A stretch of 64,000 bases of DNA from Cristatella mucedo (taxonomy: Eukaryota > Bryozoa > Phylactolaemata > Cristatellidae), in the NCBI GenBank assembly GCA_009760855.2, contig WPIO01000036.1, positions 1,941,001-2,005,000 of the forward strand, read 5' to 3'. This document shows positions 3,305 to 64,000 of the stretch, piece after piece. The notes beneath the pieces were generated by a model. It ran no database searches, was not told the DNA's origin, and worked only from the letters and a program-made list of their open reading frames with translations. The position numbers and the translations under genes are program-made. Position 1 is the first letter of the stretch; every line of letters starts with the position of its first letter.

Positions 3305-3703
3305 CAATTTTAAAATATGTGACAGTATTATAAGTTTGGTTAGTAATCCTCTTTGAATAAGGTTGGTTTGGTTGCATAGCCTCTGCCTCGGGCGCTGATA
3401 TGGTGATAATGGACGATCGAGCAGTAGGCACGCTTGCTAGTTGCATTGCTCTCTCACAGTACACTTCATATTCTTGTGTCCCGACGTAAAGGTCCATGTA
3501 ATATATGAGCTTAGAGCTTTCCTGACCGTCTACCACCGCTGACACAATCGACGGTTTCCTATCCGTTATTAGGATATCTCCATTGACGTACCAAGCGATG
3601 GTGACATAGGCCAGGAACGGTGTGTTGTCCATCTTGCAGGATATCCTCATCGTCGAGTTGTTATTAAACCATTCATCTCGCATTATTACAATCAGGGGGA
3701 CAT
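3305..3703 (-). CDS. Receptor paralog 3, exon C (Ig-like domain)
   Basis: A 399-nt exon, phase 1 at both ends: acceptor TTTGATTTCAG before 3703, donor G|GTAAGC after 3305. It encodes about 133 residues with an Ig-like layout: B-strand cysteine in 'MRISCKMDNTPF', core tryptophan in 'VTIAWYVNG' 14 residues later, and F-strand cysteine in 'YEVYCERA' about 45 residues after the Trp. The end is a stalk-like stretch with N-glycosylation sequons (NQT; NNS near the start). It is paralogous to exon C at 34927-35310 and to the partial exon at 63872-64000: the shared frame is CER-x(5)-V-P/x-x-x-R/K-S-x-x-I-I. The open frame upstream of 3703 is intron read-through and is not part of the exon. Likely extracellular, membrane-proximal domain of a surface protein; ligand unknown. 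Confidence 0.8.
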
Positions 3704-3899
3704 CTGAAATCAAATCGATTTCCAGCTTTAGAAAACTACTAAAAACGTAACAGGCGACGGGACGGCAGCCCTGGGGGACACCACTGAGACACCCTGCTCT
3801 ACAGGGGGGAGGGGCTCCGGCGCCGCCCTCCCCATCCCTGGGGTCCCACCGGGATCGCACCGGGGTCGCACCGGTGCTCCAAACCTGGCTTCGCCTCTG

Positions 3900-4085
3900 C
3901 TACGCCAAAATATCTTTGCATTGGTAAGCGGGAGTAAGAGAATGCATGAGCTTTAAAGCGAGTAACAAAACCCTGAACTCAATACGGGACTTTATAGAGA
4001 GCAGGTGAAGTTCTTGAAAGGATGTGGTATTATGGCAATTATGATTTTGACGAAAGACTAGCCTAGCTTCAGAGATTTGCACCAC
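3900..4085 (-). mobile_element. LINE RT C-terminal fragment
   Basis: The minus frame reads 'SRIEFRVLLLALKLMHSLTP' then 'AYQCKDIL', the region after the RT core in CR1/L2 elements (compare 'RIDFKVLSLTFRSLHSLAPA' in family 2). It is a short, degenerate insertion in the B-C intron of paralog 3. The flanking plus-strand sequence to about 4300 may be part of the same element. Confidence 0.5.
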
Positions 4086-4299
4086 CCATATGTACCCTAT
4101 TGCTCAATAGACTGCAGGATATCTTTCCCCGGTCTTATTCTCGAATACTCGATACTCGAAATTCACTACTCGTGTCAGGTTTTTTAGTCAGGCAGCAGAA
4201 ATTGTTCCGTTTTCTACTGCAATCGGAATTGATAGTCACTACAGCTCTTTGGCCAGCTAATGCACGAGGCCGTTCCATCAGCTAATCTCTTTACTTTAC

Positions 4300-5175
4300 T
4301 CTCTCTCTATCGTATGATTCAGACATCGAGCTTCATCGATCAGGATAGTTATTATCACGTTATAATTGTCCCTAAGCGCAGCTAGGAGTTTCTTGGCTGT
4401 ATATCCTGACATTAGAATCTTTGGCTTACCGTTTTCTCAGTACTGTTAAATATTTTGCAACTTCACCACAATTTGAGATATTTTAGCAGACGATTTAACT
4501 AAGAACACTCGATTTGACAGAACAAGCAGCTAGTTCCGCGGTCAAGCTATTCAAACGTCGGTGAGCCATGTCAAACGGATTAGGACTGCCGAGATACGGT
4601 TTGTTAGGTACAGCTATCTGGAGCGGTGTCATATGCTATCTCAGAACTTAGTGTGACCCGGCGTAATGGCCAAAGTCTTATCATAGTTAAGAGTTGTGCC
4701 CTAGGCTTGAATCCATGGCAGTTGCACTCTAGATTTCAAGCTATCCAGCTGGGTTTCGCTACGGGCGTCGTGTTGAATTTTGTGCATGCTATCACTGATG
4801 ATGTACATTTTTAATTTTCCGAGACTTTTTGAATACTTTTTTCGGTTTTTCTGGACTTAAACCCATTATACTAACGTATGCCACTAACGTTGACATACTG
4901 GCTAGCATCGTTGCTTTATCTAAGCAGTTGATAGCCGCGATTTAAATCTGTGAGTCGCGAATGTATTTGTCACACTGCATCATGGACTTCATTGCCATTA
5001 TAAGTGCTGCATTTGTGCCCGAAGAATTTCGCGATATTCCACTCTAGCACCAATGCAATGCAATGCAACGTATATGCGATGTATGTGTGATGTATATGCA
5101 ACGTAAACATGATGTGCGTGTAATGCATGTTTTATGTAAATTTAGTATATATATAATTTAGATTTAATGTATGTT
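4300..5175. other. Intronic DNA, no gene seen
   Basis: Within the B-C intron of paralog 3. Around 5055-5150 there is a loose tandem of ATGCAATGCAA / GTATATGCGATGT words, possibly a decayed microsatellite. Nothing else is recognisable. Confidence 0.4.
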
Positions 5176-5280
5176 TAATAATAATAATAATAACAACAAT
5201 AACAATGCACTTGAAAAAGCGCCCCCAGAGAACTCAATCTCTTCTTAGGCGCTTTACATTTGCTGCAAAGGGAGGTATGT
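5176..5280 (-). mobile_element. LINE family 2, 3' tail
   Basis: Solo 3' end: (TAA)n, then TGCACTTGAAAAAGCGCCC, CAGAGAACTCAATCTC and AGGCGCTTTACATTTGCTGC. This is the reverse complement of the hairpin terminus of family 2. Confidence 0.75.
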
Positions 5281-5289
5281 GTCATGCAT

Positions 5290-5960
5290 ACGTAATATCT
5301 ATGTAATATAAGCGTAATTGGATGCAATGTATTGCTGTTTGGAGCTCCAAATAGGTATTAAGACTGAGTGGGTGGTAGCAGAAGCGATTTCTATAGCACG
5401 CTCCAAGCCTCAGCAAAGCTTTCGATAGCTCAGTCAACTTCTGCATCGGTGTACGCCAGATACAGTTCAGTGTCAAAAGCTGCCACAACATTCAGGCTGT
5501 TGTACTCACATTTTCGTCAAAACAAATAAACTCTACATTCGATGAATCAGGTACAAAATAAGTGTCTTGAAGGACCAAGAAACTATTCGCCGGTTCTCAG
5601 TACTCAGCTCTCACCTCAGCCTTCGGAGCTCTTAACGCTGTTTTGCGTCTTTAAAGCACGAATAGTTAGTAAAGAGCCTTATTGCCAGTAATTAATACCG
5701 GTAGAACTGTGGTAGAACCGGTGGAAAGACTCAAATTTTGAGTCGAAGCAGCATCTTTGCTATCGCGTGTCTATTAAATATAGATTATTATAGATTAAAT
5801 ATAGATTAAAGTGGAGCGCTAAAGCAATCGAGATCAATTCGATTGTAACGCAGAGATGTCTTTTTCTTAGATTCTACTTCCATATTCCACAGAATGAGCA
5901 CCGTGTGTCAATAGGTTGGTGGCTGGAAGATAACCAATCGAGTATCCAAATCACTTTTCT
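5290..5960. other. Intronic DNA, no gene seen
   Basis: B-C intron of paralog 3. Includes short ATATAGATTA repeats near 5775-5805. No convincing exon. Confidence 0.4.
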
Positions 5961-5964
5961 CGTT

Positions 5965-6090: not shown

Positions 6091-6099
6091 CTCCTATAC

Positions 6100-6901: not shown

Positions 6902-7252
6902 CTCTAATTTGATAAGCAGCTTCTTCTGAACGTATCAAATAATCGTGGCTGTAATACTGCTGGTAGACTCCAACGGAACAAGAAAATCTAGCAAAACTAA
7001 CAGAACTGTTGAGCTTGGTAACGGCGATAACGGTTTGTCGAGCGCATAAAACTACACTGCTCTCTATTTCTTCAGACGCCATGCCATCGTGAAATTCGTG
7101 GCCAGTGACCGATTCGGCGTTGTAATGCAGCTTCGCTTCCGTTATGCGAAGTCCAGTCAAAGAATTGCACTCGCACGTGACCACGAAGGCCTCACCCGCT
7201 GGCATCTGCGATAGAGAAGTCACGGCAGGCGTAATGGCCACAGTTGGACGAG
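6902..7252 (-). CDS. Receptor paralog 3, exon B (Ig-like, four-cysteine domain)
   Basis: A 351-nt exon with phase 1 at both ends: acceptor CTTTGGTTTCAG before 7252, donor AGAG|GTAAGTG after 6902. It encodes 117 residues. Conserved with exon B of paralog 2 (38756-39109): a P-A/E-G-E-A start, a C-x-C pair ('FVVTCECNSLTG'), a cysteine followed by 'TVIAVTKLNSSVS', and 'FSCSVGVYQQ' near the end, finishing in Y-Q-I-R. The first and last cysteines are spaced like the B- and F-strand cysteines of an Ig fold, but the core Trp is absent here (paralog 2 has a Trp near that place). It carries an N-glycosylation sequon (NSS). Extracellular; follows domain A and precedes domain C. Confidence 0.8.
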
Positions 7253-8759: not shown

Positions 8760-11700
8760 GGCTAGTTCCAGCTTGTAATAGAATGTAGTGTATCTCCGTC
8801 TGTAACTTCACAAAGCCATAAACACTATATGGGTATTACGCTTGACAGGTTTTTTTTATAACAAACTGACAGCCGAAGCGGCTTTCAGTACGCCTTCGGT
8901 AGCCAACAGACTTCGTCTGACGCAGCAAAGAGAAAGTGGAAAGCATAGCAGAGTCAGGAGGGCAGTTCAGGTAGTGAGTAGCATGAAAGTAGCAGCTCAG
9001 CACTGCTGAGAAGGATGAGCCATAGTCAGCAGTAGGAGAGTAGTTGTCGTTGCGAAAGAATTGTGGAAGCGAGTTATACATTCTAGGACCTGCAGAGTTA
9101 AAGCTTCCGTCGCCAACGGTCTTTAAGCGGAGGAATGAAACAGCTAATTTATTGTCCACACAGGACCTGAAGGCGCGAAGAGGCTGAAACTGGTGCAGCA
9201 GTTCAGCTAGGTACGAAGGAGCCAAGCCGTGGCGGGCCTTGGGGGTCAGCCTAAGAACTTTGCTCTGTATCCATTGCTCAACCGGCATCCATCCTAGTTC
9301 TTTTAGCAAAGAAGACACGTGCTCAAACCTCTGGGACTTGAAAACTAGCCTTGCAACCATATTCATAGTCAGCTGCAGTGGCCAAGTTGCTTTCTTTGGT
9401 CGCCCAGCCAAAAGTCAATTACAATAATCAAGCCGAGACAGAACTAAGGAGCTAGTCAAATTGTTTGCAAGCCACTGTGGAAGACAGCTCCTAATCATGG
9501 ATGGGGATCAGACGTGATGGCTAGCTGTAGAAGCAGTCTTCTGAATGATGCTTCTGAAATTTAGGCAGCTGTCGAAAACGACGCCTAACTTTCGAGCACG
9601 TGGTGGTGAGTGCACAACAGCATCAACTATTAGAAGAGCAAAGCCTGTTAATCCAGCAATACGCTAATGGTGTCCTTAGAGCAGCCGTTTGGTTTTATCG
9701 TCATTTATTTTTAAGAAGTTTTCCGACATACAGGATCGAATGTCGGCAAGGCAAGCATTCGGTTCTCAGTTGCTGCAGCATATTCCGGCGGTTTGAATGA
9801 CAAATACAGCTGAGTATCGTCAGCGTAGAAGTGATATCCTATTACATGGTTCTTAATCACTTTTCCCAGAGCTGTAGTACAAATGGAGAACAGCAAGAAA
9901 ACGAGTGCTGACCCTTGAGGGACTCAACAGGTGACTGTTCTCGTGCGTTAGAAATGACCCACACACAATACGGATTGAAAACGATCAGACAGGTGCGATT
10001 TAAACCACGCCAGTTCCTCTTCTGGCAGACCGATCGTTGTTCTCAATCGTTCAAGCAGAACATCGTGATCAATGGTGTCGAAGGCAGCAGACAGACCTAG
10101 CGGAGCTAGGGCAGTGACATTCCCGTCATCATTGCCACGTAGAATGTCATTGTTAACACGGAGGAGAGCAGTTTCGGTAGAGTGCTGCATCTTGAACCCT
10201 GATTGAAATGTTTCTGACATTCCGTTATTTTCAATATGTTCAACTAGCTGCTTAGTAACAATTTTTTCAAGAATCTTTGATAAGAACGGAAGGAGAGAAA
10301 CTGGACGATAGTTTGCTAGGACTTCTGTGTCTAATCCAGGCTTTTTAAGAATAGGTCTAACGATTGCCGATTTGAAGGACTTGGGACGACCCTTTCTCCC
10401 AAAGAAGCTTTAAAAATCTCAGTTAGGGCAGGGCTAAGTTGGTCTGCAAGTGAAGACCACGGACAAGGTGGTATAGGGTCTTCAGGAAACGAGCTCTTTT
10501 TACTTGACCTTATTAAGATAGCCACATCGCATGCAGAAACCTCGGAAAACTTTTTAAGGAAGGTCACGGGTTGTGATTCAGCAATTGCTTTAGTCGGATG
10601 GGGCTTTATGGAGGAACGAACGTGCACAATTGTTTCAGTAAAGAAAGCTGAAAACCTCTCGGCTGAGCCCTTAATATCTGGGGAGTCAGACCTCTCAGCA
10701 TTGGCCAGTAAATGGTTCACTGTCTTATAAATCTGTTTAGGGTCCGACTAGCAGGAATTTAGCTTTCGAGTGAAAAACGAAGCGCTGACTTTTTAGCTTC
10801 CGGGTGTAAACTCGAAGGAAGTCTTTGAAATTGACGGGATGTGGATCAGACCTCGATTTCTCGAAACGACGTTCAAGTCGGCGCTAAAACCGGCGCATTT
10901 TTAGCAGTTTTTTTGTAAATTGAAAGGAATCTACGCGACTCTGTACACGGACGGAACGAACGGGAGCACTTGTTCTTGGTTGTCAAGAGCACTCCTGCGT
11001 GTCACGTTTACTGCATCAGTATCAGTGAGGGTACCGAGGCTGCCGATCGAGTCTGAATGCAGATCAAGAAGAACTGCACCACAAACAGATTTGCGTTTGA
11101 TGAGCACCTGATTGCAACCGATTCCAACGATGGCCCGTGCGAAAAACGATTCGAGAACAACAATTGCAACCCAGCCAACCACCTTGTCAGAACGTGTTGG
11201 CTGATAAAATGAGAACCCGGATGGAGTGGTCTCAGATATACAGCTACTGAAACAAGGCGTCATCCAAGTTTCGATAAGCAGAAATGCATCTAGTTTCTCC
11301 TGGACCACCTGATCGCGGATAAGTAACCCGTGTTTTTAGCGAGCGGGCATTTTAGTAGGCGGAATATAAGAGGTTGTCCAACAACTGGGCGACGGCAATG
11401 AAGTGGCTTGCATTCACGTCGACGTGTATCCGGCCCGGCAGACGCGGGCCCTTCGAATTTGAATTGGACCTTAGTAACGGCCGCCGGTCGCCGTTCCACT
11501 GCACGCTGGGCCACGGCATGTGAGTACTACCGAAACGAGTACTATTCAGCGCTTAAAACCTACGGGTCGTAGGTTTGAGAGCCGAGCTGTTGATAGGGCG
11601 AACGCACAATACAGGAAGGTTCTCTCTGACCTGCCGAAGAAAGCCTGCTAGTAGGTAGCGACTAACGGCGACATCGCACCGTGTGCTAAGCAGGTCCTGT

Positions 11701-11770
11701 CTTGTGTAGCAAATCCGAGGACAGCTCATAAATAGTCACAGCGAAGATAATAGCGGAATACTAGCTTACC
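8760..11770 (-). mobile_element. LINE family 1, near full-length but broken copy
   Basis: About 3 kb in minus orientation, in the A-B intron of paralog 3. From its 5' end it has a CR1-type untranslated/leader region (around 11500-11760), the AP-endonuclease start ('KLDAFLLIETWMTPCFSS' around 11250), a linker, the RT ('[16 protein letters not shown]', '[20 protein letters not shown]' and '[14 protein letters not shown]' with an intact A-D-D), the post-RT region (8836-9411) and the 3' end with the inverse of GGAGATAC near 8790. Frameshifts and stops separate every block. It is collinear with the copy at 49505-52910. Confidence 0.85.
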
Positions 11771-12420
11771 AAAATACAGTCCAGCGAATGTCTTCAAACG
11801 ATTTTGGCAAGTAAAGGCTTCTTGCCAGTTACGAATCTCGTCTCTTCTGCCACGGTATGGCATGCTGCCTGCGTTCGTTCGCAGTCAGTTTTTGAGCATA
11901 CGAGGCTGTTGTAGTGATCGACAGACATAGTTACTGAGCAGCTGCATTGCAGTCATCTGCTTTTTTCCTGACGGGCATGCTAATTTACAATTGACAAGCC
12001 TTACTATGCATGGATAGCTGGATCGGATCGAAAGCAGTTTGTCGCTCAATGTCGCTCAGGGTCCGCTGTAGCGAACTTAAATCGCCGGAAATGCTTTTGA
12101 CGCGCTATAGTGGGTGTGGCTAAACCTGCGGCAATTTACTCTTTGGTAGTTGATCTAAAATTGCTAGTCGTGTGCATAGGTTCGATGCAACTCTGATAAA
12201 TCCAGGTTCGACGCCAGTACGGTTTTTGCAAAGTTGCGACTCCATTGCATTTCTCAAAGTCGCTGATTCTGCAATGCTTTGTGAATTTCTTGCGTGGTTT
12301 AGAAAACCAAGACTATTTAATAGCAGGGAAGGAAAAGACGCATCTGCGTAAATTTGTTGATGGCTCCGGGACTCCCAAAATGAAGATACGTAGCCATTAC
12401 AGTTATCATTTGAATGTACT
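11771..12420. other. Intronic DNA, no gene seen
   Basis: A-B intron of paralog 3. A minus-strand frame of 134 codons overlaps its end but runs through a LINE 3' end and is not credible as a gene. Confidence 0.4.
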
Positions 12421-13299: not shown

Positions 13300-14385
13300 T
13301 ACATTTTTATTGTTTTAACCTGGTTTCTCTCAAGACCAGCGCCTATGATGCAGATATATCCAGTAAACTTCCTAATAGAGCCTGGCTGGAGCGAATAATT
13401 TTTCTTTCATCAGTCGAACAAGCATGGATGTATGGATTGGAGCGTAGCCTGAAGGGTTACTTCTGACACGCTGGATGAGCAAATGCCAGTTTAGATCACA
13501 GGCTGGCAGTGTTCAATGAAGTGCGATGCCATATGAAGTACGGATGCTATATGAAGTATGAATGTTTTTTTCCAATCCATTCGTGATTCTGTTGCATCCA
13601 GGTGCATTTCAAGTCGGACTCAGAGGACATGTCATGAAATCGGCTCTTTATCAAGTCGCTGAAGCAAGTCAAATCTGTAGTTTAGGCTGAGCAGACAAAT
13701 GGTCGACCAGCTATTTGACAACAGTGCTTCGACATGCTTTTGCTAAAGGCTCGTTCAGCAGAGGTATATAGTGACATTCAGCATTCACTCCTAGACCGAA
13801 CACACAGTGATGGAAATCTAGGTGTAATTAGATCTCCATGATTTCTTTCTAGGTCTGTCTGCGGAAGTGTTACACGGGATTCTGGGTTCGATATGCCTGG
13901 ATTTGTATTGTATATTATATTTCATATTTAATTAAATTGTATTATATTATTATGCTGTATTTACATATTATGCTATTTTATTCTTTATTTTATGTATTAT
14001 ATTTTAAAGCATATTACACTATATTATATTATACTATATTACATATATTAAACTACATTATATTGCATAGGATTTTATTATTGGAAGCTTACATCTCCGG
14101 GCTTGATAGGAAGTATTCACAAGCTGCCTAAAATGCTTTGCAGATGTCAAACCTCCAGAACCGCCAGGCTTAAGCCACGAGACATTAAACTCATTCAAAT
14201 TCTTAGGCAATCTCGTAACGTATAAACATGAGACCTGAGGCCTCATGCATTGGCAATGAAACCCAAAAAATACTCTCGCTGGGATCGGTGAATGACTGCG
14301 TAACCTTTGCAGTACAGTGGAAGTGGCTGTAAAAAGCTGCTCCGCAACCTCTGGGCTACCACTGTAGCTCTGTAACCGATTGAGC
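13300..14385. other. Intronic DNA with an AT-rich block
   Basis: No gene seen. 13905-14065 is almost only A and T (TATTATATTATTATG, TTATATT words), a likely decayed microsatellite. Confidence 0.5.
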
Positions 14386-14387
14386 TA

Positions 14388-14878
14388 CCGAGATTGCTCC
14401 CCCGAGACTGCTCCTCCGAGACTGCTCCCCCGACACTGTTCCTCCGAGACTGCTCCTCCGAGACTTCTCCCCCGGTACTGCTCCTCCGAGACTGCTCCTC
14501 CGAGCCTGCTCCTCCAAAACGGCTCCCCGACACTGCTCCTCCAAAACTGCTCCTCCAAGACTGCTCCTCCGAGACTGCTCCCCCGAGACTGCTCCCCCGA
14601 GACCGCTCATCCGAGACTGCTCCTCCGAGACTGCTCCTCCGAGACTGCTCCTCCGAGACTGCTCCTCCGAGACTGCTCCCCCAAACTGCTCCTCCGAGAC
14701 TGCTCCCCCGAGACTGCTCCTCCGACACTTTTCCTCCGAGACCGCTCCGCCGAGACTGCTCACCTAAGACTGCTCCCCGAGACTGCTCCCCTGAGACTGC
14801 TTCCCGAGACTGCTACCCCTAGACTGCTCCCCAGAGACTGCTCCCCGAGACTGCTCCTCCAAGACTGCTCCTCCGAAG
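14388..14878. repeat. Minisatellite, 14-bp unit, ~35 copies
   Basis: Tandem array of the unit GAGACTGCTCCTCC and variants (CCCCC, CAAAA, CACTG). Because 14 is not a multiple of three, all three frames are visited, giving a 14-residue period in translation. This makes long open frames of 135-173 codons on both strands; these are repeat artefacts, not genes. It directly abuts a family 2 LINE. Confidence 0.9.
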
Positions 14879-14879
14879 G

Positions 14880-15960
14880 CCTCAGTTGCCACATCGCATA
14901 ACTTTTCGCCGACCTGCACTGGCTACCAGTCAAGCAACGGATCGACTTCAAGGCTTTGTCGCTCACGTTTAGGGCCTTTTTATTCTTTAACTCTAGTCTA
15001 TCTATCAGATCTATTTTCCCACCTGGCCAAGCATTGTACAAGCATTGCCGAGCATTGTACCACTCGCTTTTCGGAATCCAACTGTTTACCTATACCTCGT
15101 ACAAACCTCATATTCTTCGGAGACCGGCATTTAGTTGGTATGCTCCCAAAGCCTGGAACTCCCTCCCGACTTGCGAAACGACATCCCCTGACTTGACCAC
15201 ATTTAAAATGAACTTGAAAACGCACCTATTTATGACAGCATTTAGTCGGTGCCTTGATTCTTTCTCCGTGTGCTTATGTGCTGACACTGTGCATGCTGCC
15301 ACTAGCCACACTTGCGTGCTGACACTGTGCATGCTGCCACTAGCCACACTTGCATGCTGACACTGTGCATGCTGCCAACTAGCCACACTTGCATGCTGAC
15401 ACTGTTCATGCTGCCACTAGCCACACTTGCATGCTGACCCTGTGCATGCTGCCACTAGCCACACTTGCATGCTGACACTGTGCATGCTGCCACTAGCCAC
15501 ACTTGCATGCTGACACTGTGCATGCTGCCAACTAGCCACACTTGCATGCTGACACTGTTCATGCTGCCACTAGCCACACTTGCATGCTGACCCTGTGCAT
15601 GCTGCCACTAGCCACACTTGCATGCTGACCCTGTGCATGCTGCCACTAGCCACACTTGCATGCTGACACTGTGCATGCTGCCACTAGCCACACTTGCATG
15701 CTGACACTGTGCATGCTGCCACTAGCCACACTTGCATGCTGACACTGTGCATGCTGCCACTAGCCACACTTGCGTGCTGACACTGTGCATGCTGCCACTA
15801 GCCATGTTATTCATGTCGTTTATCAAGCATGATACCACTCTCTATTTGATCGTGTTTCCTTTTCAGCAAATTTTAAGCATCTATAAAGAGATTGAGTGCT
15901 TTGGGGGCACTTTGTCGACTTAATTTTTATTGTAAATATTATTATTATTATTAATGTAAG
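14880..15960 (+). mobile_element. LINE family 2, 5'-truncated, 3' UTR expanded
   Basis: Begins inside the post-RT region ('DLHWLPVKQRIDFKALSLTF' in broken frames), continues through the 'AWNSLPTCETTSPDLTTFK' block and ends with the AAATTTTAAGCATC...(ATT)n terminus. Its 3' UTR contains a tandem expansion (separate entry). Copies without the expansion, such as 42880-43820, show the ancestral state. Confidence 0.8.
15281..15805. repeat. Minisatellite, 38-bp unit, ~14 copies, inside a LINE 3' UTR
   Basis: The unit consists of ACACTGTGCATGCTGCCACT and AGCCACACTTGCATGCTG. Variants (CCAACTAGCC, ACTGTTCATG, ACCCTG) recur in the same order twice, so a block of four units was duplicated as a whole. 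The family 2 consensus has this unit once, flanked by a partial second copy starting GCTGACCCTGTGCATG. Confidence 0.95.
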
Positions 15961-17538: not shown

Positions 17539-17979
17539 CGCAGAAGGTGACGTTGCCTAGCTCAGAATTTGAATCGTGAAATTCTGTATCATAGGACACG
17601 TCAGTGTAGCTAACGCCGCACCTCAGATTGTTAACCAGAACTAAATACATAGGGTTCCTGAGGTTCCATGGAAATGTGAAAGTCACGCTCACGTCGGTTG
17701 GGTTGTGTGCATAGTCGTCCTTGATCTTGCATCTAGTACTCTCAAAGTTGAACGGCTCTCTGTTGTAGCGTGAACCATGAGGAAGATCACCAAGGCCAAG
17801 ACCAGATGGCATGCTGCACCAAACGTAAACTAGCTTGTTGCGAGACCTCTCAGTGCTGGAATGCATTTGCATTGATAGTGACCTCAGCCTTTTGCTTGGC
17901 AATGAGAGCACCTGGCACGTGATGCTGTACATAGCCGACATGTTCACACATGACTGGCGAGTGGTTGTGATAGTCAAAC
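17539..17979 (-). CDS. Receptor paralog 3, exon A (six-cysteine domain)
   Basis: A 441-nt exon, phase 1 at both ends: acceptor CCGTCTCTAAG before 17979, donor TGCG|GTAGGC after 17539. It encodes 147 residues. Against exon A of paralog 2 all six cysteines align: 'QSCVNMSAMYSITC', 'VYVWCSMPSGLG', 'STRCKIKDD', 'NLRCGVSYTDV' and the closing 'GNVTFCG'. Also shared are the 'TFTFPWNLRNP' motif and the glycosylation sequons NMS and NVT. Most other positions differ. I do not recognise the family; the ends and cysteine pairs suggest a beta-rich extracellular domain. It would follow the leader exon at 19931-19997 and precede exon B at 7252, across a 10-kb intron full of retrotransposons. Confidence 0.8.
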
Positions 17980-19930: not shown

Positions 19931-19997
19931 CTTCAGCCAGTAATTGCTCGATAATGGCAAGGACGAATAATGCAAAAGTAGACGCCACTGAAAGCAT
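19931..19997 (-). CDS. Receptor paralog 3, exon 1 (signal peptide)
   Basis: Coding part of the first exon: ATG at 19997-19995, 22 codons plus one base, donor GAAG|GTAAGC. The product 'MLSVASTFALFVLAIIEQLL' plus 'AE' has a hydrophobic core typical of a signal peptide. The phase 1 end fits exon A at 17979, giving a Gly codon at the junction. Its coding length (67 nt) equals that of the orphan leader at 36303-36369. Too short for ordinary ORF finding; supported by start codon, hydrophobicity, splice donor and phase. I did not recognise a promoter upstream. Confidence 0.65.
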
Positions 19998-19999: not shown

Positions 20000-20690
20000 T
20001 ATAGGATTCTCACTGCAAAAGCTCTGTTGAGCGTTGTGAGCTTCTGACTTTGCGTTCAAATAAATTCGAAAGTCGCATTAATTGGAAATCATTGTAGCTT
20101 TCACATTAACATGATATATTTTAAGAACCTTTATTAGCTTCAGTTAGTCAGAATGTCACCTATCCGATTGATTCGCCAAAGAAGTGAATAAGTAGCCATT
20201 CCATTTTCAAATTCGTGGCGATAGCTGTAAAAGATCCGGATTTTCAGTTTTTAAATAAAGGCCGTGGACTTGTGCCTGCAGTTTCTGTGAGGATCGGAGC
20301 AAAGTTGCCAAAAACCAGTAACTAATGCCCATATTTACATTGAAATGACGTCACTGACTTTTTGGAAAGATGGCTTGAGGTGGACGAAATTACTATGCAG
20401 ATATCATACACTGCCCTCAGAGGCCGCGCTAGCTTTCAAGGATCTCGTCTACATTTGGAACTTATTTCTCCTGAAGCTCGGGCTAGAAATAATATTTACT
20501 ACCCAGGCGAAGCAGCTGGGAAGCCTTACTTTAATGCTACTCAATCTACCCCTGTAATGAGCTAGTTTTTTCGCAGCCCGTAAACTAACTAACGCAAACT
20601 AACTAACTAAACTAACGAGTACGTCATGTTGTACTTATAGTACTAATACGACTGTACAGTCGTGAATAGTGTTCAAAAAAGAGAGAGAGA
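20000..20690. other. Upstream of paralog 3, no gene seen
   Basis: Should hold the 5' flank of paralog 3. No TATA box, repeat or exon could be supported. Overlapping plus frames at 20345-20565 are short and lack splice support. Confidence 0.35.
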
Positions 20691-20788
20691 GCACTGCACA
20701 CTCGTAGTTTAAATTGAATTTTTCAGATGCTAGAAATTCGCAAGAACACGGAGTTGGAAATATTGCTTTCAAACGGTGGCCTCCATCA

Positions 20789-20918
<130 letters not shown>

Positions 20919-20919
20919 A

Positions 20920-21390
20920 CCATCTTGCGTTCTCTGCGTTGCATCTCTTTGCTGTCGCTTTAAGAGATGACGATTCTCCAGCTTTTGCTTTGGCAAGCAT
21001 TGCTTGTGTACAGCAAAGCAACCAGAGTGAGCGACACCGAATCGGAAGTCGTGCTGACGCTAAACCTTTAGTAAAAAAAATAATCTGCAGGCACATAATC
21101 TGCCTGATATTCTTAACGGGGAATAACGTGTAGGCAATATACGATTCAAAATGGCCAGTAAGTAAATGCATTCCAAAAATAAAACCTCAAGTTAATGGGC
21201 TACCCGGTCCTGACCAAAATGTTTCACAAAATTTGACTTACATTTGCATGTCAATATTTTTTGTAAAAATAAAACTAATATAGGTTACTTTTAAATACGT
21301 TTTCTTTTTTTCTCCTACACAGATTTCGCTCCATTAAGTAAGAACCCTAATCTTGCCAGTCGGTGGGGCTGTCTCACCAGCTAGGTCGGC
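20920..21390. other. Intergenic, no gene seen
   Basis: No recognisable exon or repeat. Confidence 0.4.
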
Positions 21391-29220: not shown

Positions 29221-29224
29221 GATA

Positions 29225-31295: not shown

Positions 31296-31774
31296 TCATG
31301 CCCCGCTACTGCAAAGGCTCGTCGCCTTTTCTCGCACGCTGTTTTGCATCCGCTTCGCCTTCGAAGTTGACCTTGGCGTCTTTGCCTTCCGCCAGAACGG
31401 ACTGTGTTCCAGAGAGGCCAGCTGTAAATGGCGGTAAAGATTTGTCTCCTCCAGCCCACTAGCGCTTTGCCTGCGAATCGAGCCGGTGATCAATGCAAAC
31501 GCGAAAAATTCGGACTCGCTTGCAATCGCGTCCTCACTGGAGAACGAGATGCTTGATGCTGCAACTTATGACTTACTTCCTTCAAAGTTTTCTTTACGCG
31601 AAAATATCCTTCCGAACATGCCGTTAAAGCAAAATATATTTTTCTTTTTAAAAACAGTCACCGTAAGAACTCCGATGACTAATAGTACGGCACTGAGAGC
31701 TATTGAAATTATCGGACTCGGTCCCAACGTGGTTCTAGTCATTTGGCTTGTAGTTTGTGCAGTCGGTATCGAAT
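31296..31774 (-). CDS. Receptor paralog 2, last exon (transmembrane and tail)
   Basis: Opens behind the acceptor CGTTTCTGCTTCAG in phase 1, matching the donor of exon C (34927). It encodes a short Ser/Thr stalk, a transmembrane helix ('IISIALSAVLLVIGVLTVTV', residues ~25-44) and a basic stop-transfer 'FKKKN'. After about 70 codons there is an in-frame TAA (31568-31566). Beyond it the same frame stays open for 89 more codons with a tail-like Ser- and acidic-rich composition ('SSISFSSEDAIASESEFF', 'GLEETNLYRHLQL', a basic C-terminus) up to a stop at 31296. Either the protein ends early (489 residues) or the TAA is bypassed (up to 579). In paralog 1 the transmembrane segment and tail also share one exon. 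Confidence 0.7.
31559..31576 (-). other. In-frame TAA inside an 18-nt GT...AG segment
   Basis: On the minus strand the segment reads gtaagtcataagttgcag: a consensus splice donor at its start, a good acceptor at its end, and 18 bases (six codons) long. Removing it would delete the TAA and keep the frame, in phase 1 like all other junctions of the gene. Eighteen bases is below any spliceosomal intron length normally reported for animals, so chance, stop readthrough or a disabling mutation are equally possible. Confidence 0.5.
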
Positions 31775-34926: not shown

Positions 34927-35310
34927 CTGAATTCACTCCAGAGCCTGTTGCCTTAGCATAGACTTCTGTGATTAATTCCTTGGCTTTATCTAAAGGCGAC
35001 GAAATCACAATAGAAGGTGATCTCGCAGGAGGAACATCTCCGAAAGCCAGAGTTCGCTCGCACTCAACATTTTTGCTGATTGAGTCTACTGGAATATCGG
35101 ACTCGTACACTGACCATAATCCATTTTGGTTCGGCATTGACTGAGCAGTTTCGATTGGTTGTGCGTTTCTCTCGGAAATCTTCACCCCATTAACGTACCA
35201 GGCAATCTTTATCCTGGTAAGGAATGGAGTGGGCTGGATTTTACAGAGCATTCTGAATGACCTTGTTGCGTTTGACCATGGACCTTGAACAATGCCGACA
35301 GTGGGACTAC
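34927..35310 (-). CDS. Receptor paralog 2, exon C (Ig-like domain)
   Basis: A 384-nt exon with phase 1 ends: acceptor CTCTATCTTTTAG before 35310, donor TCAG|GTGAGG after 34927. It encodes 128 residues with the Ig-like pattern of a B-strand Cys in 'FRMLCKIQPTPFL', Trp in 'IKIAWYVNG' and F-strand Cys in 'KNVECERTLAFG'. These align without gaps near the cysteines to exon C of paralog 3, including the W-Y-V-N-G and C-E-R words. The end is a membrane-proximal stalk, and a glycosylation sequon (NAT) lies near the start. Joins exon B (38756) upstream and the membrane exon (31774) downstream. Confidence 0.85.
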
Positions 35311-38755: not shown

Positions 38756-39109
38756 CTTGAATTTGGTAAGTTCGCTCTTTAGACGCCAAAAAGTATGGTG
38801 CGTCGGAGTCCTCCTGATAAATGCCAGCAGAGCACTGTAAGCTGACAGAGCTCATTGAGCTACCCAAGCGCGTGACAATCACTACCGAGCCGCTAGGGCA
38901 AACACTAACGGCTGACCTCCGGTTGTCGACGTCGCTAGGCTTTGAGTTACCAGGATCTTTCACCAGAACAATGGGTCCGCTATTATTCCACGTCGTGGTT
39001 AGCACCTTGTAGCCTGCGGCTGGCCGGCAGTCGCAGCTAGCTAGGTAGGCCTCACCTTCCGCTAGGGTTGACGACGTAGGTGACGGATCGGTCACAACCA
39101 CTGGCTCTC
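38756..39109 (-). CDS. Receptor paralog 2, exon B (Ig-like, four-cysteine domain)
   Basis: A 354-nt exon with phase 1 ends: acceptor TTTGTTCATTTAG before 39109, donor TCAAG|GTAATT after 38756. It encodes 118 residues: 'EPVVVTDPSP', then 'AEGEAYLASCDCRPAAGY', a Trp in 'TTTWNNSG', a third cysteine in 'VSVCPSGSVVIVTRLGSSMS', the fourth in 'VSLQCSAGIYQ', and the end Y-Q-I-Q. The four cysteines and the V-I-V/A-V-T-K/R-L-x-S-S word match exon B of paralog 3; the rest is well diverged. Extracellular domain between A and C. Confidence 0.85.
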
Positions 39110-39612: not shown

Positions 39613-39614
39613 CG

Positions 39615-42879: not shown

Positions 42880-43820
42880 AAACCCAGTGTGATTCCGAAA
42901 TTGGAAAGGCTGACGCTCAAAATTGGCTCTGCTAGCATATCTCCAGTTGAATCAGCTCGAAATCTAGGTGTCATATTCCAAAGCGACCTCTCGTTAGACG
43001 ACCATATCGGCTCCACAGTCAAATCTGCCTATTTTCAGCTTCATAACATTGCTAAAATTCGGGCTTGTTTAGATAAGGATACCACGTCCAAGTTGGTCCA
43101 TGCATTCGTGACATCCCGTCTCGACTTCAGCAACTCACTGCTCGCACTGGCCTACCGGCATGTGCGATCAGGCGATTGCAGCTGGTGCAAAACTCAGCAG
43201 CTAGGCTTCTCAGTCGTGAGCGTCGATGTTGCCACATTACACCACTTCTCGCCGACCTGCACTGGCTACCAGTCAAGCAACGGATTGGCTTCAAGGTTTT
43301 GTCGCTCATTTTTAGGTCACTTCATTCTTTGGCTCCAGCCTATCTCTCCGATCTACTCCCCCATCATGCCAAGCATCGTACCACCCGCATTTCGGAATCC
43401 AACAGCCTACAAATACCCCGTACAAACCTCAAATTCTTTGGAGACCGTGCATATAGTTCGTATGCTCCCAAAGCCTGGAACTCCCTCCCGACCTGCGTCA
43501 GAACATCCCCTGACCTGACCACATTTAAAAAGAATTTAAAAAAACACCTATTTAGGACAGCATTTAGTGCGTCCCTGTAATTCGTCCTTGATGTGCTTAT
43601 GCGTGCTGACACTGTGCATGCTGCCACTAACCACATTTGCATGCTGACCCTGTGCATGTCACCCCTAACCATGCTATTCATTTTGTTTGTTTATCAAGCA
43701 TGATATTACTCACCGTTCAATTGCATTTTCCTTTGCAGCAAATGTAAAGCGCCTAGAGAGAGATTGAGTTCTCTGAGGGCACTTTATCAAGTGCATTATT
43801 ATTATCATTATTATTATTAA
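42880..43820 (+). mobile_element. LINE family 2, 5'-truncated copy
   Basis: Starts at 'AACCCAGTGTGATTCCGAAA' (the K-P-S-V-I region), carries 'SARNLGVIFQSDLSLDDHIG' and 'DLHWLPVKQRIGFKVLSLIF', a 209-codon frame joined by a frameshift, then 3' UTR, hairpin and (ATT)n. It lies in the A-B intron of paralog 2 and its 5' break is at the same place as in the 29225 copy. Confidence 0.9.
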
Positions 43821-44993: not shown

Positions 44994-45443
44994 CGCAAAA
45001 AGTGACGTGTCCAGGCTCGCGGTCCGAGTCCACCGCGTTCTCGCCGTGCAGTACGTCCGTGTAGACCAGACCGCATCGCAGACTGTTAATGAGAGGCAAC
45101 AACTTGGCAGTCCGATTTTCCCACGGAAACGTGAACGTGAGATTAAGTGGACTGGGTGGCTTCATGTGCCTCAGATCTGGAAGGACGCACTTTGTCCCGT
45201 CGAAGCGCAACGATTGATTCGGACTAGTAGGTCTATCGGCTACGCGCAGGCCGTACGGTGGCGTACACCAGGCGTACGCTCTAACGCCGGCGTAATGATG
45301 GCTCCTGCTGTATATGCTCCTTTGCAGTTGCAACGTGTAAGATAGTATGGCGGGCATCGAAAAGGCCGAGCACGTGATGTTGTACGTGCCCGTGACGTTC
45401 ACGCAGTGCTGGCGTATTGTTTTGACTCGCGTCGGTGCCACCG
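44994..45443 (-). CDS. Receptor paralog 2, exon A (six-cysteine domain)
   Basis: A 450-nt exon, phase 1 ends: acceptor GTATTGCATTACAG before 45443, donor TGCG|GTGAGT after 44994. It encodes 150 residues with six cysteines in the same order as paralog 3: 'RQHCVNVTGTYNITC', 'AYAWCTPPYGLR', 'GTKCVLPDLR', 'SLRCGLVYTDV' and the closing 'HVTFCG'. The 'LTFTFPWENRT' motif is also shared. Sequons NVT, NIT, NQS, NLT and NRT suggest heavy glycosylation. Follows the leader exon at 48329 and precedes exon B at 39109. Domain family not recognised. Confidence 0.85.
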
Positions 45444-48328: not shown

Positions 48329-48401
48329 CTTGACCGTCGACAGCAAAAGTAGAAAGATAGACAGCTGTAAGGGACGCCGAGAAGAGCATCTCAAAGCTCA
48401 T
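48329..48401 (-). CDS. Receptor paralog 2, exon 1 (signal peptide)
   Basis: ATG at 48401-48399, 24 codons plus one base, donor CAAG|GTAAGG (phase 1). The peptide 'MSFEMLFSASLTAVYLSTFA' then 'VDGQ' has a hydrophobic core and a plausible cleavage site. A second in-frame Met four codons in could also start it. Joined to exon A (45443) it gives an Ala codon at the junction. The long open frame seen past the donor is intron. Confidence 0.65.
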
Positions 48402-49504: not shown

Positions 49505-52500
49505 TGGATCTCCGTCTGTAACTCCACAAAGTCATAAAGACCATGTAGGTGTTACGCCACAGAGTTTTGTATAGCTCACTCCCAGCCTAGGCGGCTTTAG
49601 GTAGCCTTCGGTAGCCAACAGACTTCGTCTCACGCAACACAGAGAAAGTGGAAAGCATAGCAGAGTCAGGAGAGCAGTTGAGGTAGTGAGTAGCATGAAA
49701 GTAGCAGCTCAGGACCACTGAACAGGATGAGCCATAGTCGGCAGTAGGAGAGTAGTTGTCGTTGCATAAGAATTGTGGAAGCGAGTTCCACAGTCTAAGA
49801 CCTGCAGAGCTAAAGCTAATGTCGCCAACGGTCTTTAAGCGGAGGAATGGAACAGCTAATTTATTGTCCACACAGGACCTGAGGGCGCGAACAGGCTGAA
49901 ACTGATGCAACAGTTCAGCTAGGTACGATGGAGCCAAGCCGTGGATGGCCTTGTGGGTCAGCGTAAGAACCTTGTTCTGAATCCGTTGGTCAACCAGCAT
50001 CCATTCTAGCTCTTTTAGCAAAGGAGACACGTGCTCAAACTTCTGAGACTTGAAGACTAGCCTTTCAGCCATATTCATAGTCAGCTGCAGTGGCCTAATC
50101 GCATTTTTTGGTAGCCCAGCCAATAGGGAATTGCAATAATCAAGCCGAGAGAGAACTGAGGAGCTAGTTAAATTGTTTGCAAGCCACTGTGGAAGACAGC
50201 TCCTAATCTTGGATAGGGATCGGACGAAATGGCTAGTTGCAGAAGCAGTCTTCTGAATGAAGCTTTTAAAATTGAGGCAGCTGTCGAAAACGACACCTAA
50301 ATTCCGAGCACGTGGTGACGGTCGCACAATAGCATCACTTATTAGAAGAGCAAAGCCCTCTAATCTAGTTATACGCTTAGGGTGTCCTATGAGCAGTAGT
50401 TCGGTGTTATCGTCATTTAATTTCAGGGAGTTTTCCGACATCCAGCATCGAATATCGTAAGCATTCAATTTTTCAGTTGCTGCAGCATATTCCGACGGTT
50501 TGAATGACAAATACTGCTGAGTATCGTCAGCATAAAAGTGATATCCTATTCCATGTGCTTAATCACTTTTCCTAGAGGTTGTGTATAAATAGAGAACAGC
50601 AAGGGGCCAAGTACAGACCCTTGAAGAATTCCACAGGTATCCTTTCTCGTGTTTGAGACCTGACCCCCACACGACACCGATTGGACACGATCGGACAAGT
50701 CAATTTCAGCCAGGCCAGTGCTTCGTCTGCCTGATCGATTGTTGTTCTCAATCGTCCAAGCAGAACATCGTGATCAATGATGCCAAAGACAGCAGACAGA
50801 TCTAGCAGAGCGAGGGCAGTGTCATTCTCGTCGTAGTTGCCACGTAGAATGTCATTGCTAGCACAAAGGAGAGCAGTGTCAGTGGAGTGCTGCCTCTTGA
50901 ACCCTGATTGAAATGTTTCTGACATGTCATTCTTTTCAATTTGTTTAACTAGCTGCTTAGCAACAATTTTTTCAAGAATACTTGACAAGAAAGGAAGAAG
51001 GGAAACCGGGCGATAGTTTGCAAGGATCTCTGTATCTAACCCAGGCTTTTTAAGTATGGATGTAACGATTGCCGATTTGAAGGACTTAGGGACGACCCCT
51101 TTTCCCAGAGGCTTTAAAAATTTCGGTTATGGCAGGGCTAAGTTGGTCTGCTAGTGAAGACCACAGAGATGAGGGTTTAGGGTCTTTAGGAGACGAGCTC
51201 TTTTTGCTTGACCTTATTAAGGTAGCCACGTATCATGCAGAAACCTCGGAGAACCTTGTAAGGAAGGTCGCAGGTTGTGGACCCCCATTTGCTTTAGTCG
51301 GAGGGTGCTAAATAGAGCCACGAATGTGTACAATTTTTTCAGTAAAGAAGGCTGCTAACTTTTCGGCCGAGTCCTTAATATCTGGGGAGTCAGACCTCTC
51401 AGTATTGGCCAGTAAAGGGTTTACTGTCTTACAAATCTGTTTAAGGTCCGACTGGCAGGAATTCAGCATTTGGATGAAAAAATAAGCCCTGGCCTTTTTA
51501 AGCTTTCGGGTGTAAACTCGAAGGAAGTCTTTGAAATTTACCAGATTTGCATCAGACCCCGATTTCTTGAAACGACGTTCCAGCCTGTGCTTAACCCGGC
51601 GCATCTTGAGGAGTTTTTCTGCAAACTGAAAGGAATCTCCACGACTTTGAACACGGATAGAATGAACGGGAGCATGCTTGTCAAGAGCACTCCTGAGTGT
51701 CATGTTCATTGCATCAGTGAGGGTATCGAGGCTGCCGGTCGAGTCTAAATGCACATCAAGAACACCTGCTTCACAAACAGATTTCAAAAAATTGTTTACG
51801 TCAATGCTTTGTAAGTTACGTCGTTTGACAAATTCGACGTTACCGTGTACGTACAAGGGAGCAGGAACAGTAAAGGAGACCGAACAATGATCCGAGACGG
51901 TCGGTGGGCACACCATAAGGTCAGTGAGGAGGACATCCTTTGTGATCACAAGATCCAGAGTATGGCCACCGACGTGGGTGGTATGATATACGTGTTGGAC
52001 CAAACCAAAATTCTCCAGACAGTCGAGAAATGAGCGGACCTTGCTGTTGCTAGGGTTGTCAACGGGACTATTGAAGTCTCATGCAATCAGTAACGGCCTG
52101 TCACACGCAAATATTTTAGTAAGGAACTCTGAAAACTCCTCTATAAACAAGTTTAGACAGTCAGAAGTAGGCCGGTATATCACAACAGTGAGAGGCATTG
52201 TCTTCGATGAAGACCTAACTGCAACCGATTCAAGCGATGGCCCATGCGAGAAACTGCATCTGAGAAACTGTACATCTTTGATTCGCGAACAACAATTGCA
52301 ACCCGCCAACAACCTTGTCAGAACCCATGGACTTTTTGAATGAGAACCCGGGTGGGGTTGTCTGAGAAATACAGCTACTGGAACAGGGCGTTATCCAGGT
52401 TTCGGTAAGCAGAAATACATCTAGCTTCTCCTGGTTCACCTGATCGCGGATAAGTAACCCCTTGGTTTTTAGCGAGCAGACATTTAGTAGACGGAATTTA

Positions 52501-58198: not shown

Positions 58199-59253
58199 TC
58201 ACCGCCACGCCTTCGAGCCACCGCGGCGGCCGCTTCGGGTGGAGCCCCGCGAGCCCGACGCTGGCGTTGTAGCGACTCTGCTTTGAGCGGCCGAGCTCGG
58301 CGAGCCATCTGAGCGCCGAGAAGAGAGCGGGTTCGAACCGGCAGCCGACATCTTGGATCTGTCGCTGCGGCCTGCCATCGGCGAGTGGGTCGCTCGTGGC
58401 GACTCTGCTGCCTTTGACCTGACGTGGTCGCTGCGACCGGCCGCCGGCGACCGGATTGCCGCTGAGGATGAGATTGATGACACATGCGGCCGGCCGCTGC
58501 TGCCGCGGCTGTGGGCATCGCGATTCGCCATCAGCGATCTGGCCGCCAGCGGCGGTCTGGCTGCCTTCTGCATTGCGTTCCTGTCGTCGTCAGAGGCCGT
58601 CATCGGCAAGAGCGTCGCCATGAGCTTGCTTGGCGCCACCGCCTTGCCGACGTCGTGGCGAGTTGGCACCGATTGCTGGCGCGAGGCCGATGTCATCTGT
58701 CGACCCGAGCGAGCGGCCTGAACCCAGCCGTCGACGACCGCCTTTGGCGACAGAGCCACCGTCGGTGAGTGAGATCGCGGGGATGGCCAGCGCGACGACC
58801 GGCCACCGCCGCCGTCAGCGCCACCGCCGCGGCCGACGTATCGAAACGCCGTCCTCGCTTCTTCCGGCCGCCGGCTCTCTCGCGACGTCACTAGACCACC
58901 TGGCGCAGCGACGCCACCTAGCGCAGCGACGCCAGGTGGCGCGCTTCTCGACGCCTCGCTCTGCTGAGCCATGGAAGAGAGCGAGACGCTGTAGGTTGTC
59001 GTTGCCAAGGTCTCGTCGAAGGTTTCGGCGATTTCGAGCGGCTCCAGCACTTCAGCCGACGTCACCGACGAGGCCGCCGCCACCGCCGCAGGCAGCGCTG
59101 GCAGTGCTTGACGTCTCCGTCTCCTCTTCCTGATGAGCACGACTCCAACCCAAGCAAAGGCGCAGAGCGCACCGAGGCCTACCACCGATCCGATGGTCGC
59201 TGCGAACAGCTTTTTTGGCGTCACCATTGTCTTCAGGATTCTTATTTCGATTT
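58199..59253 (-). CDS. Receptor paralog 1, last exon (transmembrane and long tail)
   Basis: Opens behind a strong acceptor (TTTTTCTTTTCCTCAG) in phase 1, matching the donor of the partial C exon at 63872. It encodes 'IEIRILKTMVTPKKL', a transmembrane helix ('FAATIGSVVGLGALCAFAWV', then 'GVVLI') and an RKRRRRR stop-transfer. A cytoplasmic tail of about 305 residues, very rich in Ser, Ala, Arg and Gly, runs to TGA at 58201-58199. Near its C-terminus the words 'HSPMAGRSDRSK' and 'RSPAAGRSDHVRSK' are internal repeats. No canonical ITIM or ITAM is seen. The exon is far more GC-rich than those of paralogs 2 and 3, and its tail is not similar to theirs. The Met at 59227 is internal, not a start. Confidence 0.75.
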
Positions 59254-61475: not shown

Positions 61476-61479
61476 CAAC

Positions 61480-62380: not shown

Positions 62381-62384
62381 TCTA

Positions 62385-62685
62385 ATGCAATGTAGCGTAT
62401 CTCCGTCTGTAACTCCACAAACCCACTAGGACTGTGTGGAGGCTACGGGGGAGAGTTTTCTTGAAGGAGAGTTTTCTTGAGCGCACTCAAAGTCTAATAG
62501 GCTTTCAGTACGCATTCGGTAGAAAACAGTCTTCGTCTCACGCAATAAAGAGAAAATGAGAAGCATAGCAGGGTCGGGAGAGCAGTTGAGGTAGTGAGTA
62601 GCATGGAAGAAATAGCAGCTCAGGACCACTGAAAAGGATGAGCCATAGTCGGCAGCAGGAGAGTAGTTGTCGTTCCTGACCAGAG
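62385..62685 (-). mobile_element. LINE family 1, 3' end
   Basis: GTAGCGTATCTCCGTCTGTA at its 3' end, then post-RT sequence to about 62685 ('AGTAGTTGTCGTTCCTGACC'). A ~15-bp duplication (GGAGAGTTTTCTTGA) is visible at 62450-62480. Confidence 0.8.
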
Positions 62686-62689
62686 GCAC

Positions 62690-63365
62690 CGACGGACGTT
62701 TCACCACTCCTAGTCTGCATTGAGATTGCATTTGATTGCATTTTCTAACACGTTATCTGCGATGACCTTTCAGAGGGTGGATAATAAACACAGCCCGCTA
62801 GTGAGGATTTCGACTGGACGAGACGATCGACGCCGGGGACCGTTCGTCTGTCACGTGGCTTTGTCGCGCTTCGCTGCGCCATCTTCGCATGCCTTGAGGA
62901 TGGCGAAGCGTTTGCACTGCGTATTGTTTGCTAAGTTTCTGCGTCCAATCGCGATCTTACAGCGATGGGGCGGATTGGATGAAGCGGCCAATTCGAGTTC
63001 TCCCTCAAAGACGCCCAGCTGTCGCTCAGCGACGCGTCGGCACGTCCGCATGCGCTCGACGTCCTCCTATGCGAGAGGTTCCCACGTCTTTCTCGCCGCC
63101 AATTATCCGCTCCCGCGTGAACAGCGAGTGAGCTCTTTCGAGTGAATCTCGATGACCTCCGACCTACACTGCCGCCCACAGCTGCCTTCACTGCCAGCTA
63201 AGCCGCAACGATGACGTCAGCTACCACGTGTCGTCGGGACCTGTCGGAACAGCCAATCAGCTGCCACTCTCTGTCGCCTAAGGGTCATTGCCGAAGAACG
63301 CTCGTGCTCCCCCACTTGAGGTCTTCAGCAGCGAAAGCAGGTGCTCCAGTCGCATGGTGCACTAC
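62690..63365. other. GC-rich intronic stretch, no firm exon
   Basis: Open frames on both strands (62720-63191). One minus frame ends in a GTAAGA donor in phase 1 near 62965, but its upstream acceptor would be in phase 0, which does not fit the gene, so I do not call it. Confidence 0.35.
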
Positions 63366-63369
63366 GCAC

Positions 63370-63530
63370 TGCTTTGGCCCAGCGGTCAAGGTGCTCGCCT
63401 CGACCAAGGTCTGATCGAGGTCATGGGCTCGAGCCCCGAGGCTAAGTGAAGCCCGTAAAGAGAGATTAACCTCTTTGGTTCTTAAGTTCTTTCTAAGTTC
63501 TCTTAGGGAGCTATAAAAATGAACCACGTA
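63370..63530 (+). mobile_element. SINE type I
   Basis: 'TTTGGCCCAGCGGTCAAGGT' (A-box side), 'GGGCTCGAGCCCCGAGGC' (B box), then 'GTAAAGAGAGATTAACCTCT', 'AAGTTCTCTTAGGGAGC' and 'TATAAAAATGAAC'. Full-length layout in plus orientation. Confidence 0.8.
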
Positions 63531-63871
63531 TATTTTTGCATGTACTCTTCGCTTCGCTAACTCTGATCTTTAGAGCGCGACTCCGATCTGACCTTCGAAT
63601 AAACCGCAGCTCCAGTCCTTTATGCGAATTAACAACCGCTCCACTCGTGCTAGCGTAGAAACAGCAGCTCTGGTCTTCCGTGGTAATAAACAGCGACTCC
63701 AGCATTGAACGATAATGAAAAACACTACTCTATTCTTAACAATGAATAAAAATAGCTAAACTTTTTCTTTTAAGTCGATGAGCATTATGCCTCGAACAGC
63801 TGCAACGACCAAGTAGGTTCAACTGCGAGTAAATAAGCTTTAACGGCACACCCCAAAGAATGCACTCTTAC
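63531..63871. other. Intron start of paralog 1
   Basis: Imperfect GCGACTCCGATCTGACC / CGCAGCTCCAGTCC words repeat at 63575-63705, a loose minisatellite-like pattern. No exon. Confidence 0.4.
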
Positions 63872-64000
63872 CCGGTTTGACGAGGATGCTGATTACGTTG
63901 GACTTTACCGGCGGGATATTTTCGACGGGCACGTGACGTTCGCACTGGAATCTGTTCGCACCCACTTCGAGACTTGCGTCGAACTCTACCAAAGGTAGCA
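63872..64000 (-). CDS. Receptor paralog 1, exon C (partial, Ig-like)
   Basis: The last 43 codons of an exon C, cut by the window edge. The frame reads 'LPLVEFDASLEVGANRFQC', then 'ERHVPVENIPPVKSNVISIL' and 'VKP', ending at the donor G|GTAAGA in phase 1. It aligns with both other C exons around the F-strand cysteine (C-E-R, I/V-P-P-V/A-K/R-S). This proves a third paralog further right; its leader, A and B exons lie outside the window. It joins the membrane exon at 59253. Confidence 0.75.

Follow-up and report, generated by a model that had tools for sequence, protein, structure and literature searches.

Six tandem genes for putative single-pass receptors built from phase 1 module exons, in and around a 64-kb window of contig C299

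The window analysed here is a stretch of 64,000 nucleotides (C299:1941001-2005000) from a genome assembly of 572,011,866 bases in 688 contigs, and its minus strand carries exons of three paralogous genes that probably encode modular cell-surface receptors. For the reading of the whole array, 191 kb of flanking DNA was joined to the window to give a 255 kb stretch of C299, on which the genes are named a, b, x, c, d and e from left to right; genes c, d and e correspond to the left, middle and right paralogs of an initial annotation of the window. That annotation described exons A, B and C as recurring on the minus strand in the same order, and tblastn searches within the window agree: between genes c and d, exon A is 36% identical (E 8e-30), exon B 30% (E 6e-15) and exon C 30% (E 5e-17), and beyond these partner exons the best other match of any gene c exon in the window has an E-value of 0.19. 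The third exon C that had been placed at the right end of the window is also present, with its 3′ part inside the window, as are the transmembrane (TM) exons of two of the paralogs; the TM exon of gene c lies outside (Table 1).

Profile and tblastn searches of C299 recovered six A, five B and five C exons, all on the minus strand and in the order A-B-C. The array extends over about 174 kb, from the candidate leader of gene e (C299:2023365) to the stop codon of gene a (C299:1849792), and five of its six genes read (leader)-A-B-C-TM-tail, gene x being the sixth. The original estimate of at least three paralogs was correct but too low, since C299 alone carries six genes and others lie on further contigs, and the rightward extension that had been advised is repaid by further paralogs on both sides of the window. 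Within the array the A modules are 138-149 amino acids long and the B modules 116-124, and compared with gene d the other copies are 18-41% identical in A, 26-32% in B and 24-32% in C. The cysteines reported as conserved are so throughout in A, whose six are invariant in all six C299 copies and in a seventh from C254, and in C, where all five C299 copies have two cysteines with an invariant tryptophan between them; the four cysteines expected of B are found in four of five C299 copies only, that of gene b having five. N-glycosylation sequons are present in 15 of the 16 core exons on C299. An origin of the A, B and C exons from unrelated genes was considered and is ruled out by their shared order and strand in five C299 genes and by the B-C order elsewhere in the genome.

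Directly upstream of exon A of gene a is a minus-strand stretch (C299:1861690-1861824) that looks like the end of an exon A (49% over 45 amino acids) and contains four TAA codons; it is likely a relic of exon duplication.

Table 1. Exons of genes c, d and e and retroelement fragments of the window. Positions are those of the window unless C299 is given. LTR, long terminal repeat.
Feature	Gene	Position	Strand	Remarks
Candidate leader	c	19931..19997	-	MLSVASTFALFVLAIIEQLLAEG; phase 1 donor; high background of such sites
Exon A	c	17539..17979	-	441 nt; six Cys; fits phase 1-1
Exon B	c	6902..7252	-	351 nt; four Cys; phase 1-1
Exon C (immunoglobulin domain)	c	3305..3703	-	399 nt; fits phase 1-1
TM exon	c	C299:1932198-1931687	-	left of window
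Candidate leader	d	48329..48401	-	MSFEMLFSASLTAVYLSTFAVDGQG; second ATG at 48389; high background
Exon A	d	44994..45443	-	450 nt; six Cys; phase 1-1
Exon B	d	38756..39109	-	354 nt; four Cys; phase 1-1
Exon C (immunoglobulin domain)	d	34927..35310	-	384 nt; fits phase 1-1
TM and short basic tail exon	d	31566..31774	-	phase 1 acceptor; ends at stop
Exon C, 3′ part	e	63872..64000	-	exon extends to C299:2005183
TM and long Ser/Arg-rich tail exon	e	58199..59253	-	phase 1 acceptor
Non-LTR reverse transcriptase fragment		49587-52390	-	among others
Non-LTR reverse transcriptase fragment		29182-29736	+	among others
Non-LTR reverse transcriptase fragment		42865-43580	+	among others
Non-LTR reverse transcriptase fragment		9948-10747	-	among others

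Candidate leader exons lie upstream of exon A in five of the six C299 genes. For gene b, the exception, the sole row of the scan lies beyond the TM exon of gene x and looks repetitive, and only weak candidates came from a looser scan. For all six genes a TM exon could be placed whose acceptor is in phase 1 and whose tail stays open until a stop codon; this supports a tandem array of single-pass receptors, in keeping with the surface receptors with phase 1 modules that were initially proposed. TM-like rows in the corresponding intervals number 13 for gene a, two for b, three each for x and c, one for d and two for e, and the choice bypassed low-complexity and repeat stretches. None of the six tails has an immunoreceptor tyrosine-based inhibitory, switch or activation motif (ITIM, ITSM or ITAM), nor a TIR or other Pfam domain above threshold.

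All 16 core exons on C299 have lengths divisible by three and fit phase 1 at both ends (32/32 junctions, with hand-picked splice sites), as the initial annotation had it. A control was made in which sites were chosen by a simple splice score with phase ignored, the acceptor score being weak; under this score 15 of the 16 donors and 11 of the 16 acceptors came out in phase 1 (26/32), and its choice coincided with the hand-picked one for 15 donors but for no more than 9 acceptors. The deviants are the acceptors of exon A in genes b, c and e and of exon C in genes c and d, together with the donor of exon B in gene b. Exon A of gene c keeps its phase 1 donor in this control, but a rival phase 0 acceptor outscores the chosen one; in exon C the same is true of a rival phase 2 acceptor in gene c and of a phase 2 acceptor 4 nt off in gene d. 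When 12 exons were sampled from other contigs with all phases allowed, the best pair was 1-1 in 11, and in the remaining one (L044) 2-1 was best with 1-1 close behind. As a further control, a strict 1-1 scan of the interval from exon A to the TM exon of gene d returned eight rows, each corresponding to exon B or exon C of this gene, whole or shortened. The module exons thus appear to be flanked on either side by phase 1 introns, and the prevalence of such 1-1 exons among extracellular modules is established (PMC7259759).

Gene x has an exon A and a TM exon with no B or C recognised between them, either by profile search or in a strict scan of the intervening 8.7 kb. Hidden B or C exons were also sought in a loosened scan, whose four rows were rejected as a reverse-transcriptase piece, a row similar to a repeat found elsewhere in the region and two versions of the TM exon. 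A very divergent module may be present, and gene x looks like a short A-TM receptor, a form that the phase 1 symmetry of the modules permits.

The nature of the modules was examined with sequence profiles and structure models. A profile of module C (10 rows, with Cys, Trp and Cys invariant in all ten) retrieved 377 PDB sequences at E<=10, the best with a whole-chain E-value of 2.5e-6. Antibody or T-cell-receptor chains or fusions, by name, make up 59 of the 60 among the matches listed, and the remaining one is 'uncharacterized', under a name also borne by an IgG1 fragment. Searches with single stretches gave weaker matches (0.047 and 0.038 for two chains), and no single C sequence reaches the cut-off of the Pfam immunoglobulin (Ig) families. 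Judged by its profile, module C is an Ig domain. The initial description of the modules as Ig-like therefore stands for C; for B it has a model of low confidence only, and for A no support was found. The B model is beta-rich and Ig-like, with a predicted local distance difference test score (pLDDT) of 57, and this fold gains no support from Foldseek at E<=0.001 or from an enlarged B profile; we read B as a beta-rich module that may be Ig-like. The A model has a pLDDT of 42.5 and a best Foldseek match of E 0.21. Foldseek gave no family for A, an absence that proves nothing, and the seven-row A profile found nothing in PDB at E<=10. Pfam returned sub-threshold rows only for the A, B and C exons and for the tails.

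That A, B and C are one recognisable domain type was considered and rejected, the B-C and A-C profile-profile scores lying within those of 40 column-shuffled controls each. The A-B score is 19.2 against 16.05 for the best of 40 shuffles, but over 23 columns only, and one B exon, that of gene b, gave a match to the C profile at E 0.17.

The whole genome was searched with single-exon protein queries, and because only the best candidates were scored the genome-wide counts are lower bounds. There are at least 41 B and at least 40 C sites, some of them weak, after split matches were merged by hand. A B site lies upstream on the same strand at <=15 kb of 33 of the 40 C sites, and on the opposite strand within that distance of none. 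The seven unpaired C sites are C376:550172, three on C44, one on C677, and 1588093 and 2114188 on C288, the latter two carrying stops. Outside C299 and C288, B-C pairs are found on six contigs (C254, C22, C376, C111, C398 and C49), and C254 has a full A-B-C set. The B sites on C398 (E 0.64) and C49 (E 2.4) are weak, the C22 copy of B leaves one usual cysteine position unfilled, and a B site on C11 (E 0.23) has stops. Weak A-like matches were obtained on C71 (E 0.46), C244 (E 0.17) and C66 (E 0.1), and further ones on C453, C653, C676, C155 and C11. The C-like matches with no adjacent B on C44 (697464, 734055 and 809175, minus strand) and C677 (1209509, plus strand) are either distant members or ordinary Ig domains.

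A second array occupies about 0.6 Mb of the plus strand of C288 and comprises about seven units, delimited at gaps of more than 22 kb. Their module orders are BCBBCBC, BCBBCBCBC (three times), BCBC, BCBBCBC and BCBCB, plus stray sites, and the number of modules in a unit reaches five for B and four for C. These units with several B and C, and gene x with neither found, bear out the modularity initially suggested. Neither a leader nor an intact A was recognised in the C288 units, and the A queries gave only a fragment with stops (C288:2138421). The 4 kb between C and the next B within one unit contain no A-like exon; two candidates with phase 1-1 came out of the scan of this interval, and one of these begins with a hydrophobic stretch. 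In the 3 kb past the last C of another unit there is a candidate TM exon that has a phase 1 acceptor and encodes a Ser-rich tail; this tail has one ITIM-like site, which also occurs in 21% of shuffled tails. Each unit would correspond to one gene.

The B exons of three C288 units are 96-97% identical to one another. The array consists in part of pseudogenes, some copies being interrupted by stop codons. Among four C exons of C288 the ratio of nonsynonymous to synonymous substitution rates (dN/dS) is 0.13-0.45, with 0.40-0.45 in close pairs (8-24 nucleotide differences) and 0.13-0.14 in distant pairs, for which dS is near 2 and thus saturated; these four exons are under protein-coding constraint and purifying selection.

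Fragments of non-LTR retroelement reverse transcriptases, presumably CR1/L2-like in the window, are numerous between the receptor genes and within their introns. Two short-repeat arrays of the window (14243-14901 and 39309-39655), which have several open frames on both strands, are probably minisatellites. An Rfam scan at the gathering threshold and a tRNA scan gave no match in the window.

On the mitochondrial contig, C688 (21 kb), AGR is read as Ser and ATA as Met by comparison with mammalian COX1, and the code is therefore that of a bilaterian invertebrate and not that of a cnidarian. Its frames read as a block nad1-nad6-cob-nad4L-nad4-nad5 (gene names are our own reading of the frames), an order that we take to be lophotrochozoan-like. 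A recurring stretch is found on this contig in direct and inverted copies at 3078-3365, 11632-11919, 13747-14034 and 20667-20942, the last copy being partial only. COX1-like stretches beyond the mitochondrial contig (C166:4375626, C83:3121, C549:2641741 and C299:634220) are probably nuclear copies of mitochondrial DNA.

We consider it probable, though well short of certain, that the window is part of a six-gene tandem array of type I single-pass receptors belonging to a lineage-specific recognition family. The layout of such a receptor would be a candidate signal peptide, A, mostly B and C, a TM segment and a gene-specific tail, with the A, B, C and TM exons spliced into one transcript and the protein sitting on the cell surface. 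Having phase 1 at both ends of each exon, modules could be lost or repeated without a break in the frame, which may account for gene x, with A and TM only, and for the C288 chains with as many as five B and four C. The ectodomains would bind ligands on cells or microbes, and the unrelated tails would give different outputs. Recognition receptors are our best guess in view of the architecture, the clustering, the recent block duplication and the unrelated tails.

Several points weigh against this reading. Across the 255 kb stretch there are nine leader-like donors on the minus strand and seven on the plus strand, hardly above background, and with so high a background the leaders are candidates placed by position only, the weakest part of the leader-A-B-C-TM layout first put forward. 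The TM exons were picked by eye among the TM-like rows of each interval, and the candidate on C288 is one of 10 such rows, eight of them in one low-complexity stretch. The hydrophobic 1-1 candidate between C and B on C288 could be a leader, a TM exon or part of a repeat. The tails share no signalling motif, and module C gives no sign of diversifying selection or an arms race in the four C288 exons compared. The joining of the exons was read from DNA alone, and the recognition role from architecture and copy number only.

A narrower form of the recognition reading, in which the genes encode innate immune receptors for microbial or host ligands, is a serious possibility without being a probable one. 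Such receptors would do work similar to that of vertebrate LILR/KIR-type clusters or of snail FREPs, and the purifying selection in the compared C exons, which speaks against this form, has to be set beside two tandem arrays, recent block duplications on C288 (B 96-97% identical in three units), copies with stops and divergent tails. We infer that immunity is a more likely role than allorecognition or adhesion. The LILR/KIR-type clusters consist of tandem single-pass receptors with Ig modules in varying number, and the present arrays resemble them in all these respects; the difference is that here only C is Ig by sequence profile, and the A, B and C exons lie below the Pfam cut-offs. The Biomphalaria FREPs, likewise a lineage-specific Ig-containing invertebrate family, carry a fibrinogen domain, whereas none of the exons and tails scanned in this analysis scored above threshold for any Pfam family.

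Cell-adhesion or neuronal wiring molecules, with tandem duplication incidental, are a rather unlikely alternative. Low identity between paralogs (18-41% to gene d for A) and loss of modules are unusual for conserved adhesion molecules, even though the multi-domain ectodomains of C288, followed by a candidate TM exon, and the sequons in 15 of the 16 C299 core exons would suit them. We think it improbable that the whole of a more far-reaching proposal holds, namely a bilaterian recognition system not previously described, with polymorphic receptors in multiple clusters, a new six-cysteine fold in A, a divergent Ig-like B and an Ig C, shuffled in phase 1 into ectodomains from A alone to nine modules and used for self/non-self discrimination.

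Slightly more improbable again is an allorecognition locus like Alr1/Alr2, in which the matching of polymorphic receptors decides between tolerance and rejection; this too would be a special case of a recognition family. The Alr genes of Hydractinia are described as clusters of low-identity single-pass Ig-superfamily genes, many of them likely pseudogenes (PMC11067881), which the clustered paralogs here and the stop-bearing copies on C288 recall. The likeness in genomic clusters of single-pass Ig-superfamily genes applies to C299, and C288 has one candidate TM exon. ITIM/ITAM motifs are reported for Alr candidates (PMC12065747), whereas the six C299 tails have none, though one C288 tail has the ITIM-like site noted above; the dispersal of B-C pairs over six contigs besides C299 and C288 and a dN/dS below 1 in the compared C exons also speak against such a locus. 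Further differences, in a comparison made by description, are the bilaterian-type mitochondrial code and the six-cysteine first module. The Botryllus fester families are single-pass receptors of a recognition locus with exon-level variation and Ig/Sushi ectodomains (PMC12065747); they are alike in being families of single-pass receptors and differ in that the Pfam scans made here gave no Sushi match.

Very unlikely, in our view, are cytokine-receptor-like genes resembling the interleukin-1 (IL-1) receptor ectodomain. The three extracellular domains of that ectodomain have many, four and two cysteines, to which the content of A (six), B (mostly four) and C (two, in an Ig domain) corresponds; a TIR or other Pfam domain above threshold is absent from the six tails, and no IL-1 receptor appears among the 60 PDB matches listed for C or the 50 model matches listed for B. 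Chance open frames or retroelement pieces, for which a region rich in non-LTR retroelement fragments might speak, have a negligible probability in the face of E-values of 8e-30 to 6e-15 between copies, shared cysteines and phase, dN/dS of 0.13-0.45 and a B-C order held at 33 of 40 C sites.

Receptor clusters of this kind are already known, since Alr-type clusters and 1-1 module exons have been described, and the A-B-C module combination is apparently undescribed: a literature search of partial coverage, based on titles and the openings of abstracts, found no family with such a combination. Module A has no relative in the libraries searched (Pfam and PDB). The makings of exon shuffling are visible here in one genome, with two or three phase 1 modules single, repeated or missing and with unrelated tails. 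Such families have repeatedly proved to be the recognition layer of antibody-less animals, and the receptors described here would serve recognition through ligand-binding ectodomains; their arrays offer a concrete gene set for the study of polymorphism and immune expression.

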